NCBI GenBank assembly: GCA_002355455.1
Contig: AP017375.1
Coordinates: 744,001 to 808,000, forward strand
DNA: 64,000 bases
Source: Stanieria sp. NIES-3757
GTDB taxonomy: Bacteria; Cyanobacteriota; Cyanobacteriia; Cyanobacteriales; Xenococcaceae
Reading direction: 5' to 3'
The translations under genes were made by a program, and so were the position numbers. Every line of letters starts with the position of its first letter. Positions within the stretch are counted from its first letter, which is position 1. Shown piece after piece: positions 21,329-33,671 of the stretch. The notes under the pieces were generated by a model. That model was not told the origin of the DNA. It saw only the letters and a program-made list of their open reading frames with translations, and made no database searches.

Positions 21329-21642
21329 CAGCTTTTTGACTCCAACACTCTAAAAATAGTATAAAAACTTTGGATAATATATTTTTTGATTGTTAAGCAA
21401 AAATATGATTTAAAACAAGTCTAAGTAGGGTTACTTAGCTCAATATCATTATTACTTATAAATATTCTCATATTTTATTCGCTCTAGTCTATCTTAAAAG
21501 TGTTAATAAAAATATTTTTTAGATTCAAAAATGATTTAAATAAAAGTTAAAAGTTAAAAAATTTTTTCCCTAATAAACTTATATTAAATCCGTTTAATTG
21601 CCCATGATATAATCAAGCAGAGAAAATAACCAAATTCAATTG

Positions 21643-22182
21643 ATGCCGAAACGAATTAGAATCGAACCTCATTTAAGTATAGAGGAACTAAAACAACGAT
21701 ATCGTAATTCAAGAGAACCACGAGAGCGAAGTCACTACCAAATTATCTGGTTGTTAGCAGAGGGAAAGACTACAGAACAAGTAGCAGAGATAACTGGCTA
21801 TAGCCGTAGCTGGATTTACGAACTTGTCTGGGGTTACAATCGCTTGGGGGCAGAAAGCTTGGGGGATAAAAGAAAAGAGAATCAGGGAGCCAAGCCACTA
21901 TTGGATGAACAACAACAAGCCTTATTATGGCAAGCCCTTCAAGCAACACCAGAGTCAGGAGGATTATGGAGCGGAACCAAAGTAGCAGCTTGGATGAGTG
22001 AGTTATTAGGCAAAGAGATCGCACCTCAAAGAGGATGGGATTATCTTCGAGGACTAGAATACGTCCGTCGAAGACCAAGACCTACTCATGTCGAAAGTGA
22101 TCCCGAAGAGCAACAACGCTGGAAAAAAAACTGGCGCAGACTGCCGCAGCAATTAAACAACAATATCCTGAATCAACGGTAG
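21643..22182 (+). CDS. IS630 transposase, N-terminal part (ORF A)
   Basis: About 179 residues from ATG at 21643 (an in-frame TTG precedes it). It holds the helix-turn-helix DNA-binding region (GKTTEQVAEITGYSRSWIYELVWGYNRLG) and the linker (GLWSGTKVAAWMSELLGKEIAPQRGWDYLRGLEYVRRRPRPTHVESD) in the usual IS630 order. Translation in this frame ends at 22182 after non-homologous residues. A canonical slippery A-AAA-AAC at 22125-22131 would move ribosomes to the -1 frame that encodes the catalytic half. Confidence 0.85.
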   Translation: MPKRIRIEPHLSIEELKQRYRNSREPRERSHYQIIWLLAEGKTTEQVAEITGYSRSWIYELVWGYNRLGAESLGDKRKENQGAKPLLDEQQQALLWQALQATPESGGLWSGTKVAAWMSELLGKEIAPQRGWDYLRGLEYVRRRPRPTHVESDPEEQQRWKKNWRRLPQQLNNNILNQR

Positions 22183-22214
22183 AAACTTGGGCTGAAGATG
22201 AGCATCGAATCGGA

Positions 22215-22703
22215 TTGCAGCCAGTAAATCGAATCATGTGGATAGAAAAGGGTCAGCAACCGATAGCCAAAGTTAATTGGCGATTTCAATGGTTGTGGTT
22301 AGCAGGATTTGTACATCCTGGTTCAGGAGAAACTTATTGGTGGATTGTACCCAAGTTGAACACTAAAGTTTTTAGTCTTTTGTTAGAAGATTTTGCTCGG
22401 CATTTTGAGATAGGTGAAAAAAAGCGAGTCATTTTAGCGCTCGATCAAGCATCTTTTCATACTACTGAAAAGCTAAAAGTTCCCAAAGGAGTACATTTAT
22501 TCTGGATGCCTCCCAAATCACCAGAATTACAACCTGCCGAAAGATTATGGCCTCTGACTAATGAAGCAATCGCGAACAAAACTTTTGACACTCTCGACCA
22601 ATTAGAAGAAATTATGATTCAAAGATGCCGTAGTCTACTTCGACAACCACAATTGATTCAAGGATTGACTAACTATCATTGGTGGCCTGAAGACCTGATT
22701 TAA
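22215..22703 (+). CDS. IS630 transposase, catalytic DDE part (ORF B)
   Basis: DDE_3 catalytic domain in the -1 frame relative to ORF A. The open frame extends upstream to the slippery run (LAQTAAAIKQQYPESTVETWAEDEHRIGL), so the first catalytic Asp (WAEDEHRIGL) lies before the listed ATG. The later motifs are ILALDQASFHTTE and the SPELQPAERLWP glutamate. As a frameshift fusion the protein would be about 350 residues, the normal IS630 length. Both halves look intact. Confidence 0.85.
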   Translation: MQPVNRIMWIEKGQQPIAKVNWRFQWLWLAGFVHPGSGETYWWIVPKLNTKVFSLLLEDFARHFEIGEKKRVILALDQASFHTTEKLKVPKGVHLFWMPPKSPELQPAERLWPLTNEAIANKTFDTLDQLEEIMIQRCRSLLRQPQLIQGLTNYHWWPEDLI

Positions 22704-22733
22704 TTATGGGTATTCAAACGGATTTGATATTAA

Positions 22734-24178
22734 CCCTCTTTTATGACTATAGGGTGATAAAATAATTGAAAATAAAAACCCAATGAAAAATGGTGACACC
22801 ACGAAGAGAAGCATCATCAACAGTGAGTTTTATCGATCACTATTGTCAAGCCTACCAAGAGCTATTCTCTGATGTGAGAAATTATGAAGCATTCAAATTA
22901 ATACATTTAGGAATGCTATCAGAAATACCTAGAAAGTCGCTACCAAAGATAGCAAGAGCGGTAGGATTAAAAGATAGTCAAGGATTAAATTATTTTCTAT
23001 CTGAAGCTCATTGGAATGTAGAAAAAATACGAGAAATTAGATTATGGTTGACTAAATTATTGATTGGAGAAAGAAAAATAACTCTTTGTATTGATGAAAC
23101 AGGAGATGTCAAGAAAGGAAAAACAACTGATTATGTAGCCAGACAGTATATTGGTAATTTAGGAAAGACAAAAAATGGAATTGTGTCGGTTAATGCTTAT
23201 GCAGTAGTAGAGGGAATAACATACCCTTTACTTTTTAAAATATTTAAGCCGAACAAATGCCTCAAAGCAGAAGATACATATAAAACCAAACCACAACTAG
23301 CTGTAGAAATAATCAAGGAATTACAAAAATGGAACTTTAACATCAAGTTAATATTAGCTGATAGTTTGTATGGAGAAAGTGGAGATGTAATTACAGTTTT
23401 GGAGCAATTGAATCTGGAGTATATTGTGGCAATTCGCTCTAACCATAAGGTTTGGATGTTCGGCGATGAGAAAAAAAAATATAATCGATGGCAAGCTTAT
23501 CAACAAAAATTATCTCGAAAGAAGAGCGAAACTAGATACATTAGAGAAATTATTTTTGGCACAAGAAAACATATTCGTTTCTATCAAATAAGTAAACAAG
23601 ACGACAAAAACCCTGAACCAAAAGATACTTGGTTTATTATGACGAATAAAAAAGGCAAAATTGCCACCACAATTGCTTCAGAATATAGTTTGAGAAACTG
23701 GATTGAATATGCGTTTAAACAAGTCAAAAATGAACTTGGTTGGGCAGATTTTCGAGTTACAGATTATCACGGTATAGAACGCTGGTGGGAATTAATTATG
23801 AGTACTTATTTTTTAGTAAGTCTTCAAGCTAATTATTTTCAATTAGAGACGATTGTTCCCGATGCCAATTCTCAAGTCTCTACTCTTAAATCAGTTTCTT
23901 CTTTTCCTTTCTCTAATCATCAGGCGTGGGATTCTGGTGCTGGTTGGAAAAGTTCTTTAAATAACTTGCGCTTAATTATTCAACCATTAATCTTTTTCTC
24001 TCTTATTCAACCTTGGCTATCCGTATTTCCTAATCAACATCTTCAACTTGGTTTTTCTAAGTTAATCAACATTATGAATCGCTTTCGTGGTTCTCCTTTT
24101 CCTCAAAGTCAATTTTTAGAGTATTCGTTCTCTGTTGCTTGCTAATTCAATATTTTTCCCCATAGTCATAAAAGAGGG
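22734..24178 (+). mobile_element. IS701-like insertion sequence
   Basis: Inverted repeats CCCTCTTTTATGACTATAGG (from 22734) and its near-complement ending at 24178 bracket one long transposase gene. The element begins only about 4 bases after the IS630 right end. The four flanking bases differ on the two sides (TTAA and ATTA), so no clean target duplication is seen. Confidence 0.82.
22790..24145 (+). CDS. IS701-family transposase
   Basis: 451 residues, full length. DDE-type core with the first Asp in TLCIDETGDVKKGKTT, the second in IKLILADSLYGESGD and a C-terminal glutamate in RNWIEYAFKQVKNELGWADF, followed by a helical tail. The N terminus SFIDHYCQAYQELFSDVRNYEAFKLIHLGML is typical of IS701-type cyanobacterial transposases. 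It fills nearly all of its element and appears intact. Confidence 0.9.
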   Translation: MVTPRREASSTVSFIDHYCQAYQELFSDVRNYEAFKLIHLGMLSEIPRKSLPKIARAVGLKDSQGLNYFLSEAHWNVEKIREIRLWLTKLLIGERKITLCIDETGDVKKGKTTDYVARQYIGNLGKTKNGIVSVNAYAVVEGITYPLLFKIFKPNKCLKAEDTYKTKPQLAVEIIKELQKWNFNIKLILADSLYGESGDVITVLEQLNLEYIVAIRSNHKVWMFGDEKKKYNRWQAYQQKLSRKKSETRYIREIIFGTRKHIRFYQISKQDDKNPEPKDTWFIMTNKKGKIATTIASEYSLRNWIEYAFKQVKNELGWADFRVTDYHGIERWWELIMSTYFLVSLQANYFQLETIVPDANSQVSTLKSVSSFPFSNHQAWDSGAGWKSSLNNLRLIIQPLIFFSLIQPWLSVFPNQHLQLGFSKLINIMNRFRGSPFPQSQFLEYSFSVAC

Positions 24179-28185: not shown

Positions 28186-28314
28186 GCAGTGGTAGTTTAG
28201 TAGCCTAGAACGCCTTATATCCTTGTTCATAACTTACCCCCATTGGGGTCGAAGAATGAGGGTTATCGCCTTCCAACGCGGGAGACGCGGGTGCAAATCC
28301 CGCCCACTGCTCCA
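28186..28314 (+). ncRNA. tRNA-like Y RNA 1 (Gly-like body)
   Basis: A cloverleaf shell with a ~50-nt insert. Acceptor strands GCAGTGG (28186-28192) and CCACTGC (28304-28310) pair fully and are followed by TCCA, an encoded CCA with U73 as in tRNA-Gly. The D stem is GTTT/GAAC; the T arm is GCGGG-TGCAAAT-CCCGC. In place of a normal anticodon arm, 28219-28268 carries the conserved module: CCUUGUUCAUA, a small hairpin (ACCCC-CAUU-GGGGU), then GGUCGAAG and GAGGGUUAUCG. CUUCCAA after it recalls the tRNA-Gly(UCC) anticodon loop, but its stem is not preserved. The D loop lacks the usual GG. Confidence 0.8.
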
Positions 28315-28342
28315 AATGAAACAGATTACTTTATATATACAA

Positions 28343-28473
28343 GCGTCGGTAGCCAAGTGGTAAGGCAGCATTTCCTTGTTCATAGCTTATCTCTAGGGGG
28401 TCGAAGAATGAGGGTTATCGATTACTCCATTAGAAATCGGCGATCGCAGGTTCGATTCCTGCCCGACGCACCA
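28343..28473 (+). ncRNA. tRNA-like Y RNA 2
   Basis: Acceptor GCGTCGG (28343-28349) pairs with CCGACGC (28463-28469), followed by ACCA. D arm GCC-AAGTGGTAA-GGC with the canonical GG; T arm GCAGG-TTCGATT-CCTGC with a canonical T loop. The shared module occupies about 28373-28420, with the inner hairpin AUCUC/GGGGU formed through G-U pairs. After the module a CGAUU/AAUCG stem encloses an 11-base loop where an anticodon arm would be. It cannot decode as an ordinary tRNA. Confidence 0.82.
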
Positions 28474-28583
28474 ATATATATAAAAGTAATAGGTAATAAG
28501 TAATAGGTAATAGGTTAAAACTGACTTATGATCTCTAATTATTTACTTTTATCTCTCATTACTTTTTTCAATTTGTTTCACAA

Positions 28584-28711
28584 GCGACGGTAGCTCAGTA
28601 GGTAGAGCGGCATTATCCTTGTTCATAAACTTATCCCCATGGGGTCGAAAGAGTGAGGGTTATCGACTGTTAATCGGCTGGTCGTAGGTTCGAGTCCTAC
28701 CCGTCGCACCA
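28584..28711 (+). ncRNA. tRNA-like Y RNA 3 (Asn-like body)
   Basis: Acceptor GCGACGG/CCGTCGC plus ACCA; D arm GCTC-AGTAGGTA-GAGC; T arm GTAGG-TTCGAGT-CCTAC, all canonical. The module at about 28616-28665 begins UAUCCUUGUUCAUA and ends GAGGGUUAUCG, with inner stem AUCCCC/GGGGU. Immediately after it, UCGA-CUGUUAA-UCGG forms a stem-loop identical in type to a tRNA-Asn(GUU) anticodon arm. This copy shows most plainly that the module sits between the D arm and the anticodon arm of a former tRNA. Confidence 0.85.
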
Positions 28712-28826
28712 AATTAAATAAGTCAAAAGTTAAAAGTTAAAAGTTAAAAGTCAAAAATAGAAAGAAGGGAGAAGGGAAAAAGAAATATACAAACAAATTT
28801 GTCTACTTACCTTATGAATTTTTTTT

Positions 28827-28944
28827 GCGACGGAAGGCGGAATTGGTATACGCAATATCCCTTTGTTCATACCTTGTCTGCAAAGACCGAAGAATTGAAG
28901 GTTATCGACTATGTCATTGTAGGTTCGAGTCCTACTCCGTCGCC
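28827..28944 (+). ncRNA. tRNA-like Y RNA 4 (Leu-like D arm, 8-bp acceptor)
   Basis: Acceptor of eight pairs, GCGACGGA with TCCGTCGC, then C and no encoded CCA. The D arm (GCG...AATTGGTATA...CGC) is of tRNA-Leu type; the T arm is GTAGG-TTCGAGT-CCTAC. The module at about 28859-28907 keeps CUUUGUUCAUA, CGAAG and GGUUAUCG, but its inner hairpin is GUCU-GCAA-AGAC instead of CCCC/GGGG, a compensatory change on both strands. Only a three-pair GAC/GUC hairpin remains after the module. A 34-base sequence shared with RNA 5 follows. Confidence 0.8.
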
Positions 28945-28960
28945 TGGTGCGGTTAATAAC

Positions 28961-28994
28961 AAACAACCAAACCAATTTTAAATCAGTCAATAGC
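28961..28994 (+). repeat. 34-bp direct repeat after tRNA-like RNA 4 (first copy)
   Basis: Identical over 34 bases to 29165-29198, beginning AAACAACCAAACCAATTTTA. Each copy starts 16 bases after the end of its RNA, and the 16 bases between (CTGGNG..GGTTAAT) are also similar. The unit RNA-plus-tail was evidently duplicated, or the tail has a role in 3' processing. Confidence 0.9.
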
Positions 28995-29018
28995 CACTAT
29001 TTAATTTTAAAAGAGCTT

Positions 29019-29148
29019 GGGGCGGGACTTTTTCGATGGTCGATTGACTATTGAAAAAGAAAAATCTTTGTTCATAATCTTATCCCAATGGGGTCGCAGA
29101 ACGAGGGTTATCGTTGGATTACATAGGTTCGATTCCTATACCGCCCCC
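29019..29148 (+). ncRNA. tRNA-like Y RNA 5 (enlarged D arm)
   Basis: Acceptor GGGGCGG with CCGCCCC, then C and no CCA. The D arm is replaced by a long hairpin with a seven-pair stem CTTTTTC/GAAAAAG and an 18-base loop. T arm ATAGG-TTCGATT-CCTAT is canonical, with one extra A before the acceptor. The module at about 29064-29113 has CUUUGUUCAUA, inner hairpin AUCCC/GGGGU and GAGGGUUAUCG; flanking AAUC and GAUU could close it. No anticodon-like arm remains. Confidence 0.75.
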
Positions 29149-29164
29149 TGGCGAGGTTAATCAA

Positions 29165-29198
29165 AAACAACCAAACCAATTTTAAATCAGTCAATAGC
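29165..29198 (+). repeat. 34-bp direct repeat after tRNA-like RNA 5 (second copy)
   Basis: Exact copy of 28961-28994, in the same position relative to the preceding RNA gene. It lies about 75 bases before the Ro60 start codon. Confidence 0.9.
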
Positions 29199-29272
29199 GA
29201 ACAAGCTGACAATAATCACTGTTAACTGAATAACTGTTAATAACTTTGCCCGCAAGGGCTGGAGGTAATGAA

Positions 29273-30877
29273 ATGAATTACCGCTTTTTTACTAATAAAT
29301 CCCAAAATACACCTCAGAATCAACCAATTCCAGGACGAGAAGCCGAAATGATTCAAGGTCGTTCTGGCGGTTATATGTTTGATGCAGGTATTTGGCAGAT
29401 GCTACGCCGTTGTCTGTTGATTGGTACGGCACAAAGTACTTATTATGCAGATAAAAAAGAATTAACTCAAGACTTTATTGGAGTTATCAAGCAAGCAGTA
29501 GTAGAAGATGCGAGTAGAGTTGCTGAAGAAATTCTCTATGCTTCTGATGGACGTTCAATTAATAATAGCGCGCCTATCTTAGCGTTAGTATTGCTGTCGA
29601 TGGGAGAAACACCCGCAGCCAAAAAAGCTTTCTTAGAAATCTTCCCTCAAGTAGTGCGTACTGGCAGCCACTTCTATGAATGGTTGAACTATACCAAGTC
29701 AATGCGCGGTTTTGGTAAGGTAATTCGGGAAGCAGGTACAGCTTGGTTATCCAAAGAAGATGTCAAGGCGTTAGCTTATCAATTACTAAAATATCAACAA
29801 CGTTATGGCTTCCAACACCGAGATGCCTTGAGACTATTTCATGTTAAACCACCGACAACAGAACACGATCGCTTGTTTAAATGGGCAGTTAGTGGTTGGG
29901 AGGGATTACCAGAATATACTCCTGATGATGCCTTAACTCAAATCTGGTGGTATGAATGGTTGAAACGGAATCCCGAACAAACCCATGAGGCTATTTCTCA
30001 AGGTAGACTGACTCATGAAATGTGTGCGCCTGTGGGCAAGATGGATAAGGCTGCATGGCAGTTGTTATTTAACGAAATGCCTATCGGTGCAATGCTACGA
30101 AATTTGGGTTCTTTAACTCAGTTAGATGTATTGCGTGCCGATAGTCGCGAGAATTTAGACCGTCTTGAAACAGTTTTAAATAATAAAAACCATCTGCGTC
30201 GCGGACGCATCCACCCGATTGATGTCCTTAAAGCCTTAAAAACTTACAAATCGGGCGGAAAAGTAGGACGTAGCCAAAAAACTTGGACTCCTGTACCTCG
30301 GATTGTAGATATCTTAGAAAAAGCTTTGGAATTAGCTTTTGATGTAGTCGAACCTACCAATAAAGTTTTTCTCCATGCTGTTGATATTTCTGGTTCGATG
30401 TCTTGCGGTGTAGTTGGTTCAGTTGGTTTAACCTGCTGCGAAATTGCTGCTACTATGGCATTAGTTACAGCAAAAGCTGAAAAAAACTATGAAATACGTG
30501 GTTTTTCTACTAAATTCATCGATCTAGGGATTTCACGACGAGATTCTTTTAGTTCTGCTCTTAAAAAAGCGAATAACAATAATTTTGGTGCAACTGATGC
30601 TTCGGTTGCCTATGATTGGGCGATTAAAAATAGATTCAAAGCAGATGTGATTTGTTTTTGGACAGATAATGAAAGTTGGGCAGGAAGAAAACATCCTTCT
30701 GTAGCTTTGAAGGAGTATCGTGAAAAAGTAAATCCAAATGTCAAGGCAGTTTACGTCACACTGACTCCTTATCGAATTAGTTTAGTAGATCCTAAAGACA
30801 AAAATTCTTGGGATTTAGCTGGTTTCGATCCTGGTGTTCCTCGTTTAATTCAAATGTTAGCAAAGGGTGAGTTATAA
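29273..30877 (+). CDS. rsr: Ro60-family RNA-binding protein (TROVE + vWA domains)
   Basis: 534 residues from ATG 29273, preceded by GGAGG at 29261. A TTG nine codons upstream is in frame, but the MNYRFFTNKSQNTPQNQPIPG start suits the family. Residues about 15-360 form the TROVE ring of helical repeats, which in Ro60 holds the ends of misfolded RNA and binds Y RNAs on its outer surface. The C-terminal vWA-like domain has the metal-site motif DISGSMS (about residue 370) and FWTDNESWAGR. Bacterial Ro60 (Rsr) works with Y RNAs in RNA quality control and with nucleases such as PNPase. Here it lies directly downstream of five RNAs carrying a Y-like module. Confidence 0.93.
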   Translation: MNYRFFTNKSQNTPQNQPIPGREAEMIQGRSGGYMFDAGIWQMLRRCLLIGTAQSTYYADKKELTQDFIGVIKQAVVEDASRVAEEILYASDGRSINNSAPILALVLLSMGETPAAKKAFLEIFPQVVRTGSHFYEWLNYTKSMRGFGKVIREAGTAWLSKEDVKALAYQLLKYQQRYGFQHRDALRLFHVKPPTTEHDRLFKWAVSGWEGLPEYTPDDALTQIWWYEWLKRNPEQTHEAISQGRLTHEMCAPVGKMDKAAWQLLFNEMPIGAMLRNLGSLTQLDVLRADSRENLDRLETVLNNKNHLRRGRIHPIDVLKALKTYKSGGKVGRSQKTWTPVPRIVDILEKALELAFDVVEPTNKVFLHAVDISGSMSCGVVGSVGLTCCEIAATMALVTAKAEKNYEIRGFSTKFIDLGISRRDSFSSALKKANNNNFGATDASVAYDWAIKNRFKADVICFWTDNESWAGRKHPSVALKEYREKVNPNVKAVYVTLTPYRISLVDPKDKNSWDLAGFDPGVPRLIQMLAKGEL

Positions 30878-31108
30878 GATTATCTTTCACGTATATAAAT
30901 GGGAAAATTAATTATAATTAGTCATCAAAATGAATTGGTAGTTATTTGACTGCATTTGAGTTTTCCCTAATTCCCTATCTTCCCAATCTCCTACTAAACA
31001 TCTAGGGGCGTTTCTTATAGCGTCCCTTTTGAATTTTTTTAACCTAAATCTACCCAAAAGAAGATATCCTAAACTTTGGGAAATATGAACCAAAAGGTTG
31101 ATCAAGCG

Positions 31109-32541: not shown

Positions 32542-33671
32542 TAAGTAGCTCCACTTAATTAAACATTAAACGTTCAACAGTATAATTTCCCTGTTGACTT
32601 TGATTTTTGATGCCATCAATAATAGCGAGAGCCAAATCATACTCATCCTCAAAAACAAAACCACCCAATTCTTGACGCTTGAGGTGTAGCCATCTATCTT
32701 CAATACGATTCATTTCAGGAGAATAAGGAGGAAGAAAAAATACGCTCAATCCTTGTTTTGACCAAATTTGATGACGTTTTTGAACTAACTTGGCACGATG
32801 GATAGAAGCATTATCATGAATAATTATGGTCAGCTTTCCTGTCTCAAAGAGTCTTTTCATAGCTCGTTCTGCTTGCCAATCCATAAAACGAAGATAACTC
32901 TTTGTTTTGTAAGTTCCTACTTTTAGGGTATACTCAAACCTTTTTTCTTCTTCCCAAACTCCCATGATATTGACTCGTCTTCCTTTTCTGGTTTTTTGAG
33001 AAATCGATTTTTGTTGCCCTATTTGACCATAGCCGTAGCTAAGAGGACTTTCAGGACAACACCCCGATTCATCTAGATACAGTAAGGTAATCAAACCCAG
33101 TTCTGACCATAATTTTAGTAGTTGTAAATCCTTCTTCTTCGCTTCTTTCCATTCTTGATTTTTAGCTGCTGGCGGTTTTCGTCTCAGTCTTTTCCAACGC
33201 CACTTTTTTTTTTAGTATCCGACGAACTTGTTCTGCTCCCAGAAACACTTGTCTTTCTCTGGCTAATCTTTGGCTCAATTGTCGAGAGCTTATGCTACGG
33301 GGTTCATTCAACCATTGTTCCATTGCTTCCCAATCTTCAGTCGTCCATGATGGCTTTCTTCCTCTACCTCCAGCTTCCCATAGCCCTACTAATCCAGACC
33401 TATTCCAGCGATGAATCGTTTGTCTGACCGTTGATTCTGCCCATTCTAAATAATTAGCGATCTCTTTAACTTTCCATCCTGCTGCATTCAGACGAAGTGC
33501 CGTTGCTCTTTGCGCCCGTTCTTCGAGTCACAGAGTTTGATAACTCCAGTTGTTGTAAGGTTGTGTTTTCTTCAGTGGTTAAAGTAATTTTTAATGCTGC
33601 TGGCATTTCTGAATCATCAAGCTAGATTTCTTCCGTTTTTATTTTACGTTTTTTTTAGGTGGAGCTACTTA
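32542..33671 (-). mobile_element. IS630-family insertion sequence, decayed
   Basis: Inverted repeats AGTAGCTCCAC at both ends (left from 32544, right ending 33669) with TA on each side, as expected for IS630. It is a different subgroup from the copy at 21.6 kb. The transposase inside is broken into three frames. Confidence 0.85.
32555..33606 (-). pseudogene. IS630 transposase, frameshifted
   Basis: The catalytic domain (LLYLDESGCCPE, IIIHDNASIHRA, PPYSPEMNRIEDRW) is open from about 33210 to 32555. The helix-turn-helix half reads in another frame (NAAGWKVKEIANYLEWAESTVRQTIHRW) up to a run of ten T at 33204-33213, where a shift would be needed to join the two. A further frame break lies near 33530, after MPAALKITLTTEENTTLQQLELSNS. 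The first break could be programmed slippage; the second makes the copy probably dead. Confidence 0.8.

Follow-up and report, generated by a model that had tools for sequence, protein, structure and literature searches.

Five tandem tRNA-like RNAs upstream of the Ro60 gene of Stanieria sp. NIES-3757, probably Y RNAs of un-permuted order

The window analysed here, a stretch of 64,000 nucleotides from Stanieria sp. NIES-3757, contains five RNA genes (R1 to R5, between positions 28186 and 29147, all on the forward strand), which lie upstream of an intact gene for a Ro60/Rsr protein (Table 1). A preliminary description of the locus had claimed five RNA genes in tandem, and this is confirmed both by direct reading and by a covariance model of the hairpin that they carry (hereafter the module), which matches five times in the whole window with E values from 1.1e-8 to 4.4e-14; this model was trained partly on the window copies, although other species supply 109 of its 114 rows. 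The five RNAs have in common a 7-bp acceptor stem, a T arm and one hairpin of about 50 nt, and four of them also have a D arm. The tRNA parts that had been ascribed to each of them are, therefore, present as far as the acceptor and the T arm are concerned, but not for the D arm, which is missing in R5 as well as in RNA copies located downstream of Ro60. Four T loops follow the TTCGANT pattern, as had been proposed (TTCGATT in R2 and R5, TTCGAGT in R3 and R4), and that of R1 reads TGCAAAT. The encoded CCA of some copies (R1, R2 and R3, not R4 or R5) was also rightly described, as was the module that replaces the anticodon arm (R4) or lies beside a hairpin (R1 and R3). This hairpin is short and lies 3' of the module, whereas R2 has an enlarged loop in the anticodon region and nothing recognisable remains there in R4 and R5.

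Table 1. Features of the array and of the Ro60 gene (positions refer to the window).
Feature	Coordinates	Strand	Description	Support
R1	28186..28314	+	tRNA-Gly(UCC)-like shell; module between D arm and short anticodon hairpin; CCA at 28312-28314	Best own tRNA Gly(tcc), score 22.6; fold z -3.0
Module of R1	28217..28271	+		Module model 62.2 bits
R2	28343..28473	+	His/Gln-like shell with module; CCA encoded	Rfam tRNA match above gathering score; fold z only -1.7
Module of R2	28370..28423	+		Module model 57.4 bits
R3	28584..28711	+	tRNA-Asn(GUU)-like shell, module, short anticodon hairpin; CCA encoded	Best own tRNA Asn(gtt), score 31.9; fold z only -1.1
Module of R3	28613..28668	+		Module model 48.1 bits
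R4	28827..28943	+	tRNA-Leu-like shell; module replaces anticodon arm; no CCA encoded	Best own tRNA Leu(tag), score 25.6; fold z -3.1, but fold differs from the proposed one
Module of R4	28857..28910	+		Module model 69.8 bits
R5	29019..29147	+	Acceptor, T arm, module; long hairpin replaces D arm; no CCA encoded	Fold z -5.5; no clear parent tRNA (best own tRNA score only 11.8)
Module of R5	29062..29116	+		Module model 51.6 bits
Leader hairpin GCCC-GCAA-GGGC	29245..29265	+	Directly 5' of Shine-Dalgarno GGAGG; similar to module tip	
Ro60/Rsr gene	29273..30877	+	TROVE and vWA protein; ATG at 29273, stop ending at 30877	
Terminator-like hairpin	31004..31027	+	3' of Ro60	3 such patterns in the stretch vs 2.4 expected (shuffles)

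These genes are missed by common finders: ARAGORN called no tRNA in the window, and hence none of the five RNAs, and the Rfam scan of the window at gathering scores recovered one of five (R2, as a tRNA), although R4 was also placed just above the cut-off (31.1 bits) by a tRNA search of the whole genome. Folding of single sequences recovered the proposed structure for R1 and R5, not for R2 and R4, and gave R3 without its D arm; among relatives, one RNA (L006) was folded without the outer module helix. A promoter scan of the stretch yielded 7 sites against 8.0 expected, that is, no excess.

The protein encoded next to the array, announced in the preliminary description as a Ro60 homologue, is indeed one over its full length: it contains the domains PF25045 (2.3e-41) and PF05731 (6.1e-16), matches Rsr of D. 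radiodurans (2nvo, 1e-78) and resembles both Rsr and vertebrate Ro60 from end to end. In the alignment, the residues facing K170 and R174 of Xenopus Ro60, which we take to be Y RNA contact residues, and H187 are K, R and H, respectively (positions counted by hand). H187 is termed essential for direct RNA contact in the available part of one report (PMC4030889). Judged from its sequence, the partner of the array is a true Ro60 with the predicted Y RNA contact residues. A hairpin in its leader was seen by eye in 81 of 81 loci, shorter in some; a script returned an answer for 74 of the 81 (the intended hairpin in 69, another one in 5), and the 12 loci without the scripted hairpin do show one by eye, in some cases with a 3-bp stem. 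This hairpin is the best match of the module model among 151 nt, but with only 9 bits. A conserved hairpin that resembles the module motif lies at the Ro60 ribosome-binding site, suggesting feedback.

The association with Ro60 extends to other cyanobacteria. When relatives of the Ro60 locus were collected (the best 80 of 122) and the module was sought from -3.5 to +0.7 kb of Ro60, 79 of these 80 loci had it by regular expression and 79 had at least one model match, so that the covariance-model search near TROVE genes proposed in the preliminary description gave a positive answer; the exception is Hyella, which has eight module copies on another contig. Across 386 cyanobacterial genomes, the module is present in 32 of the 32 with this type of Ro60 and in 2 of the 354 others (Fisher 9e-45), these two being weak matches of 35.2 and 37.9 bits, and 97 of the 100 RNA places of this survey lie about 3 kb or nearer to a Ro60 match, according to our own reading of the coordinates. 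Because the module set was collected by a motif regex near Ro60, some selection is built into the counts for motif and linkage. The survey of 386 genomes is independent of linkage, yet its model was trained on linked copies, and stricter filters apply above 40 genomes, where weak matches are lost.

From 285 modules, 246 were retained after removal of 36 without a T arm by pattern and 3 with fewer than 6 acceptor pairs. Among 128 diverse modules, 109 were used in the module alignment (A2), one (L024:4800) was excluded as a likely chance match inside another gene, and the remaining 18 were left out merely for brevity. The 16-30-nt bin consists mostly of main-class RNAs whose acceptor was wrongly set into the D loop by the script, and these misplaced acceptors also enter the 66 distinct acceptor pairings in a few cases. 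Of the 285 modules (249 with a T arm), 234 are flanked by acceptor strands that pair at 7 of 7 positions, compared with 7.7% when the 3' strands are shuffled. In the module alignment, 12 pairs are 94.2% paired, with 83 double-changed cells against 24.5 in shuffles. The whole-RNA alignment (A3; 56 diverse main-class RNAs plus R2, n=57) contains 32 pairs that are 97.3% paired (acceptor 99.5%, D stem 94.7%, T stem 99.3%), with 232 double-changed cells against 64 in shuffles. Paired changes back all six main-class helices (in helices 3 and 5, through a single double-changed pair apiece), and further pair types in this alignment do not exceed shuffles (51 vs 49.8; 190/500). Arrays vary across loci in copy number, shell and insertion site: the module is set on different tRNA shells at differing positions, in the D loop (in a few), replacing the D arm or replacing the anticodon arm. 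Linkage, phylum-wide co-occurrence and covariation together support the multi-copy, Ro60-linked RNA family with tRNA shells that had been inferred from the window alone.

The best-matching bacterial relative in design is YrlA, which also adjoins Ro60 and has a tRNA-like body with a D arm (GCUC..GAGC), a T arm and an acceptor, the Ro60 stem being located in the anticodon-arm place with strands CUUGNC and GNCGAA (our own reading of the consensus). This consensus (RF02553) has, also in our reading, CGGCGAAUG and CUUGUCGCCG, in an order opposite to that of the module. The pattern C..G.C followed by G.CGA occurs in 56 of 114 modules compared with 1.1% of shuffles (71 of 114 if A is permitted for G), and the strict G.CGAA.?G in 25 of 114 compared with 0.09%. 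In the window modules themselves the fit to a YrlA-like site is poor: with CUUA, R1, R2 and R3 meet the relaxed form only, R4 has CUUGUC but ACCGA, and R5 has neither form, so that two of five (R4 and R5) fall outside both. In YrlA the parts run Ro60 strand, T arm, acceptor 3', loop, acceptor 5', D arm and Ro60 strand, and both ends sit in the Ro60 stem (consensus, and the available part of PMC8394870). The array RNAs differ in that the D arm, module and T arm follow each other, the Ro60 hairpin is internal and closed by a loop, and the ends are placed at the acceptor (deduced from pairing, RNA ends being unmeasured). As far as predicted parts can be compared, the order in the array RNAs is a circular permutation of the YrlA consensus. 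This permuted relation is absent from the preliminary description, as are the varied placement of the module on different shells and the look-alike hairpin in the Ro60 leader.

Membership of the YrlA family was rejected, because none of the 32 genomes reached the gathering score of RF02553 (69 bits); the best match in the own genome (15.4 bits) spans two ordinary tRNA genes. In the YrlA comparison suggested in the preliminary description, both Ro60-site strands known from the consensus are recognised at the tip of the hairpin with their order exchanged, and the copies in the window match them only loosely. A tandem origin of the permutation predicts YrlA matches across the junctions of neighbouring RNAs, and such matches were found (L003:4766-4886, 40.5 bits; L040:1179-1304, 31.7; L040:1463-1575, 27.3; L124:3611-3741, 31.0). 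They were set aside as evidence for the Ro60 stem: the alignment of the L003 match misplaces the Ro60 strand, no junction match appears in the window at E up to 5, and only 16 of the 36 YrlA places in the 32 genomes lie inside arrays (own reading), the others presumably lying between ordinary tRNAs, as shown for two other genomes.

Among other known systems, permuted tmRNA and permuted tRNA genes have the order of the tRNA halves exchanged between relatives; compared with these, the cyanobacterial Ro60 RNAs are the un-permuted form. Vertebrate Y RNAs, which are not known to have a tRNA body, have a Ro60 site made of an interrupted helix, as predicted for the module. The cyanobacterial module ends in UUAUCG, reminiscent (without a comparison by any tool) of the UUAUC element named for nematode and vertebrate Y RNAs in the accessible part of PMC4726728. 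The Ro60-Y RNA-PNPase complex of Deinococcus (RYPER) has a Ro60 of the same Rsr type and would be expected to share a Ro60-binding stem joined to an effector-binding body, as far as the excerpts of PMC4726728 and PMC8058203 go; few RNA copies exist there as opposed to many in the array, whose effector binding is only inferred. A precedent for a Y RNA tether is contained in the same excerpts and in that of PMC8394870.

What was computed (the anatomy and its support from covariation, the Ro60 linkage, the conserved residues of the protein and the permuted relation to the YrlA consensus) is best explained if the five RNAs are un-permuted Y RNAs, that is, Ro60 partners built as tRNAs of normal order, which we hold to be very probable in the absence of expression or binding data. 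Their parts would run from the acceptor 5' strand through the D arm, the Ro60-binding hairpin, a short or absent anticodon hairpin and the T arm to the acceptor 3' strand, with CCA in some. Transcription, processing, Ro60 binding, effector and feedback are inferred only. The array would be transcribed ahead of Ro60 and its ends cut and finished by tRNA enzymes (RNase P, 3' processing, CCA addition); Ro60 would bind the hairpin via an internal-loop site of the CUUGNC/GNCGAAG kind, and the free tRNA body would dock Ro60 onto an enzyme that reads tRNA shape, in order to handle damaged or structured RNA under stress. The likeliest such enzyme is PNPase, as in Deinococcus, an inference by analogy whose chances fall just short of even; both PNPase and RtcB are encoded in the genome. 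Surplus Ro60 may bind the look-alike leader hairpin and shut off its own synthesis, for and against which the inference is evenly balanced. In Chlorogloeopsis fritschii PCC 9212, a TROVE transcript rises strongly after erythromycin, according to the available part of PMC6424891, and also rises, along with that of RtcB, in coculture under far-red light, according to that of PMC11423583 (array membership unchecked).

The Ro60-binding part of this explanation would be retained if the RNAs served a different purpose, as tRNA decoys or sensors whose short hairpins with real anticodons, on Ro60-bound shells, lure enzymes that cleave anticodons or flag cleaved tRNAs for repair, the decoy idea having been proposed for YrlA (excerpt of PMC7790460). 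Directly 3' of the module, 102 of 147 main-class RNAs (27.6% in shuffles) have a hairpin with a 7-nt loop and a stem of 3 bp or more, 96 of these 102 being in one register and 97 having U33; the U33 anticodons cluster in Pro (AGG, UGG, CGG; 32), Gly (GCC, UCC; 30) and Met (CAU; 8), and the loop-closing pair is double-changed in 28 of 57 sequences. The joint rise of a TROVE gene and RtcB under stress, in coculture under far-red light, would also fit (available part of PMC11423583; array membership unchecked). However, R4, R5 and the copies downstream of Ro60 have no ordinary anticodon arm, and the anticodon at the same place differs between neighbouring species in the alignment, so we regard this purpose as unlikely, although not to be disregarded.

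A much weaker case can be made for working aminoacyl tRNAs with a Ro60 tag that brings Ro60 to the ribosome or to synthetases. Intact acceptor stems, a CCA encoded in 101 of 246 RNAs, real anticodons in many and a full-looking anticodon arm with the module in the D loop in a few (L004:3794, L040:1415) would allow it, but the ribosome is not expected to accommodate an extra arm beside the anticodon arm, anticodons are unconserved between neighbours, and the CCA lies one base further on in 57 of the 101, implying an 8-bp acceptor. It is, therefore, very improbable. The module could otherwise be a small intron, with ordinary tRNAs as mature products: once it is excised at a constant site, 137 of 147 main-class RNAs are called as tRNAs by ARAGORN (uncut, 1 of 246; with introns allowed, 155 of 246), and for one junction 86 of 96 gain an anticodon stem of 5 bp. 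These calls say little, since 113-117 of 147 still pass with a scrambled anticodon region, and the intact RNA makes a 4-bp anticodon stem using the module's own UCG (the fifth pair is formed in 0% of 96 array RNAs; 41 of 44 own ordinary tRNAs have 5/5 pairs). The module also occurs in the D loop (a few) and in the D-arm and anticodon-arm places, there are at least 44 ordinary tRNA genes in the genome, the Ro60 link is left unexplained and we know of no bacterial intron of this kind. The intron was rejected on the uninformative ARAGORN calls, the 4-bp stem, the varied sites and the Ro60 link, and retains hardly any credibility. Functionless tRNA genes decaying after being struck by a mobile hairpin, although compatible with arrays that differ in number, shell and insertion site, can be practically dismissed, since paired changes run through all six helices (on which plain tRNA pseudogenes were rejected), co-occurrence with Ro60 is 32/32 and only the two weak matches without Ro60 remain as leftovers.

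The design of the probable un-permuted Y RNAs is unlike that of the described bacterial Y RNAs and recurs in many cyanobacteria. Its novelty is provisional: among the matches listed for cyanobacterial or permuted Y RNAs none concerns such RNAs by title or abstract, but this check leaves out the main paper (Chen 2014, RNA 20:1715). Nothing on the array was found among the matches listed for Picosynechococcus PCC 7002 transcripts.

A wider interpretation, which we offer tentatively and with the balance leaning somewhat against it, is that a single circular design, a tRNA whose anticodon position is taken by the Ro60 arm, exists in two linear forms, the tRNA-ordered Y RNAs of cyanobacteria and YrlA. 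Permuted YrlA would have arisen from such tandem arrays when the RNA ends moved from the acceptor into the Ro60 stem, or the change would have gone the opposite way. The cyanobacterial module would then serve as a portable Ro60 tag on many tRNA bodies, by which one Ro60 may work with several tRNA-reading enzymes or guard several kinds of tRNA, and a tag mimic in the Ro60 mRNA would exert feedback. If true, this would provide the un-permuted counterpart of YrlA and a concrete route from tRNA to Y RNA, as well as one for the origin of circular permutation in RNA. Naturally occurring arrays, with as many as eight Ro60 RNAs on differing tRNA bodies, are present in culturable cyanobacteria including Picosynechococcus PCC 7002 and offer a way to ask what role the tRNA body of Y RNAs has.

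The five RNA genes (R1 to R5) and the Ro60 gene that follows them all lie on the forward strand, as read directly from the window, in a 5.46 Mb genome of two contigs; their neighbours are a sodium/calcium exchanger gene on one side and a seryl-tRNA synthetase gene on the other. The protein contains vWA_Ro60 (2.3e-41) and TROVE (6.1e-16) domains, identified by domain search, aligns with Rsr from Deinococcus radiodurans across residues 13-532 (1e-78) and with Xenopus Ro60 (2e-73), and is, judged by its sequence, a full-length Ro60/Rsr; at E 0.001, TROVE is matched at one place only in this genome. Residues K170, R174 and H187 of Xenopus Ro60 face identical residues in the alignment, and H187 is termed essential for direct contact in the excerpt available of the Xenopus study (PMC4030889). 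Transposase-like reading frames, recognized by eye, flank the region (window 21640-24145 and 32555-33094).

In each of the five RNAs, an acceptor stem of 7 bp and a T arm enclose a common module of about 54 nt, the putative Ro60-binding hairpin; a D arm was identified by eye in R1-R4, and R5 has a long hairpin at that place. R1, R2 and R3 terminate in CCA. Among the tRNAs of the same genome, the shell (the tRNA-like body around the module) of R3 is closest to Asn(GUU) (score 31.9), that of R4 to Leu (25.6), that of R2 to His (23.3) or Gln (20.0) and that of R1 to Gly(UCC) (22.6), with no clear match for R5 (11.8); as a yardstick, scores between each of the genome's own tRNAs and the nearest other one run from 14.7 to 51. 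Ordinary tRNA genes number at least 44 in the genome and include the kinds resembled by the shells, and therefore the array is not required as the sole source of any tRNA. A direct repeat of about 50 nt follows R4 and R5 (window 28944-29010 and 29149-29215).

A Ro60 protein search identified 122 relatives, the best 80 of which were retained, all of them cyanobacterial according to their titles. In 79 of these 80 loci a regular expression located the module no more than 3.5 kb before or 0.7 kb after Ro60, and a module model matched in the same 79; the exception, Hyella patelloides, has eight module copies on a contig other than that of Ro60. All 298 matches of the model in the window and the 80 loci (E up to 0.01) are on the Ro60 strand. 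In a survey of 386 cyanobacterial genomes, this type of Ro60 (our own grouping, PF25045 at 1e-35 to 1e-42) was found in 32, all of which have the RNA, and two of the remaining 354 have an RNA match, in both cases weak (35.2 and 37.9 bits). Ten further genomes of the survey carry a different or partial Ro60-like match, and RNA of the module kind is not listed there. By our reading, 97 of 100 RNA places are no further than about 3 kb from Ro60; the other three are the two weak matches and a far copy in genome G143, in which the module follows a T arm that belongs to a degenerate, tRNA-like sequence (locus L135). In genome G385 (locus L137) an upstream-type and a downstream-type RNA, both decayed-looking, are direct neighbours without an intervening Ro60, probably a remnant after Ro60 loss. 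Plasmid pAQ7 of Picosynechococcus PCC 7002 (NC_010474, locus L124) carries Ro60 together with three RNAs of this kind, which the module model scores at 52.2, 21.9 and 13.7 bits; the three RNAs are missing from the PLSDB gene table, a table that has no RNA genes at all.

The position of the module in the shell was classified by the length of the stretch that precedes it.

Placement of the module in 246 RNAs
Stretch before module (nt)	RNAs	Remarks
10-12	48/246	D arm absent; 44 of 48 are the copy after Ro60
16-30	25/246	
31-40	147/246	Between D arm and anticodon hairpin (main class)
45-53	26/246	Further into the anticodon region

Individual inspection assigns most of the 25 RNAs with 16-30 nt to the main class, their acceptor having been misplaced; three (L004:3770, L040:1390 and L070:9929) have the look of true D-loop insertions. 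In the copy after Ro60 of many Nostoc loci (e.g., L017:9654), the 5' acceptor strand leads directly into the module. A short anticodon hairpin with a 7-nt loop follows the module in 102 of the 147 main-class RNAs, 97 of these hairpins having U33, with anticodons for Pro, Gly, Met and others; its 5' strand is the module's own UCG. CCA comes one base late in 57/246 RNAs, of Nostoc type (e.g., L027:5429), implying an 8-bp acceptor, as in tRNA-Sec. A divergent module, with a CUUGCC..GGCCGA tip and another outer helix, is present in L006:7533 and in the first RNA of several arrays, and the module model scores its matches in other loci at about 25 bits.

Our pattern detects a T arm in 249 of 285 modules, and all seven acceptor pairs form, G-U allowed, in 234 of the 285, compared with 7.7% when strands are shuffled. 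In 114 modules, a two-helix structure is paired in 94.2% of cells and has 83 cells with double-sided changes; shuffles give 24.5 such cells, and slid versions 6 to 31. For 57 main-class RNAs, a six-helix structure of the whole RNA (acceptor, D, two module helices, short anticodon stem and T) is 97.3% paired and has 232 double changes, where shuffles give 64 and slid versions 7 to 42. Double changes occur at all seven acceptor pairs, and at one pair each in the anticodon stem and the outer helix of the module. Further pair types in these 57 RNAs did not exceed shuffles (51 vs 49.8). The alignment was made with MAFFT and not fitted to structure, although the structure was drawn by us from the same sequences.

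About half of the modules have a tip of the form CUUGNC - loop - GNCGA, and others show a looser version of it; three of the window's five modules match the loose form and two match neither. YrlA, the bacterial Y RNA family of Rfam (RF02553), has a consensus with 5' end CGGCGAAUG and 3' end CUUGUCGCCG, between which are the T arm, acceptor, loop, acceptor and D arm. According to the excerpt available of PMC8394870, the ends of YrlA pair with each other and bind Rsr, and its tRNA-like domain has D, T and acceptor arms. Both designs thus place the Ro60 stem at the anticodon-arm position, and the YrlA and cyanobacterial RNAs differ only in the inferred location of the RNA ends. The permuted form was found at non-cyanobacterial Ro60 loci sampled, four phages and a Bosea plasmid matching YrlA in the vicinity of Ro60 (33 to 52 bits; one match full-length, four of the tRNA-like part only); a Rhizobium plasmid Ro60 locus gave no YrlA match, and the module model had no match in these six loci. 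Among cyanobacteria with other Ro60 types, a full-length YrlA match adjoins the Ro60 match in G032 (47.6 bits) and in G044 (38.4 bits), and G127 shows a weaker one (26.4 bits); in G021 and G041 the YrlA matches are on contigs other than Ro60's, and those closely inspected span ordinary tRNA genes. G044 also contains, at L129:212-337 (-), a tRNA-Sec-like match that holds an un-permuted CUCGCC..GGCCGAAG hairpin with GGUGAUCG at the hairpin's end, in a tRNA array beside the different Ro60 type and the YrlA-like RNA; it is possibly a distant relative of the module RNAs (module model, 11.5 bits). The YrlA gathering score was reached in none of 32 genomes, so the RNAs are not filed as YrlA; ARAGORN calls one of the 246.

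Immediately 5' of the Ro60 start codon, the leader contains a conserved hairpin. In most cases its sequence is UUUUGCCY-GNRA-RGGCYGGGAG, and its 3' side continues into the Shine-Dalgarno sequence. By eye the hairpin is visible in 81/81 loci, shorter in some, and a script counted it as intended in 69, with stems GCCC/GGGC (39), GCCU/AGGC (21), GCCU/GGGC (5), GUCC/GGGC (2), GCCA/UGGC (1) and GCUC/GAGC (1). The leader hairpin and the module tip have UUGCC...GGCCG in common, and the hairpin is the top match of the module model in its 151 nt, but a weak one (9 bits). We infer that Ro60 could autoregulate through this hairpin.

Chen 2014 reportedly identified Y RNAs close to Ro60 in over 250 species of bacteria and phages, with at least one Y RNA per species said to have a tRNA-like domain. 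Among the literature listings searched we found no account of un-permuted, tRNA-ordered Y RNAs, of Y RNA arrays built on various tRNA shells or of a leader mimic, although Chen 2014 may include cyanobacterial members.

Genes for PNPase and RtcB are present in the Stanieria genome; the RtcB match (G000:C1:1387888-1389945) is split inside one 734-aa frame, perhaps because of an intein. In Deinococcus, Rsr is tethered to PNPase by Y RNA (excerpts of PMC4726728 and PMC8058203). In Chlorogloeopsis fritschii PCC 9212, the available excerpts state that erythromycin strongly raised the TROVE gene 'for unknown reasons' (PMC6424891), and that TROVE (log2 4.5) and RtcB (log2 3.5) were among the top-raised genes in far-red-light coculture (PMC11423583). 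The module model finds the RNAs in C. fritschii PCC 6912 (L062), whose Ro60 gene is likely the orthologue of the PCC 9212 TROVE gene, a relation that was not checked. The presence of PNPase and RtcB, the Deinococcus tether and the TROVE induction are compatible with a stress-induced particle for RNA surveillance or repair.
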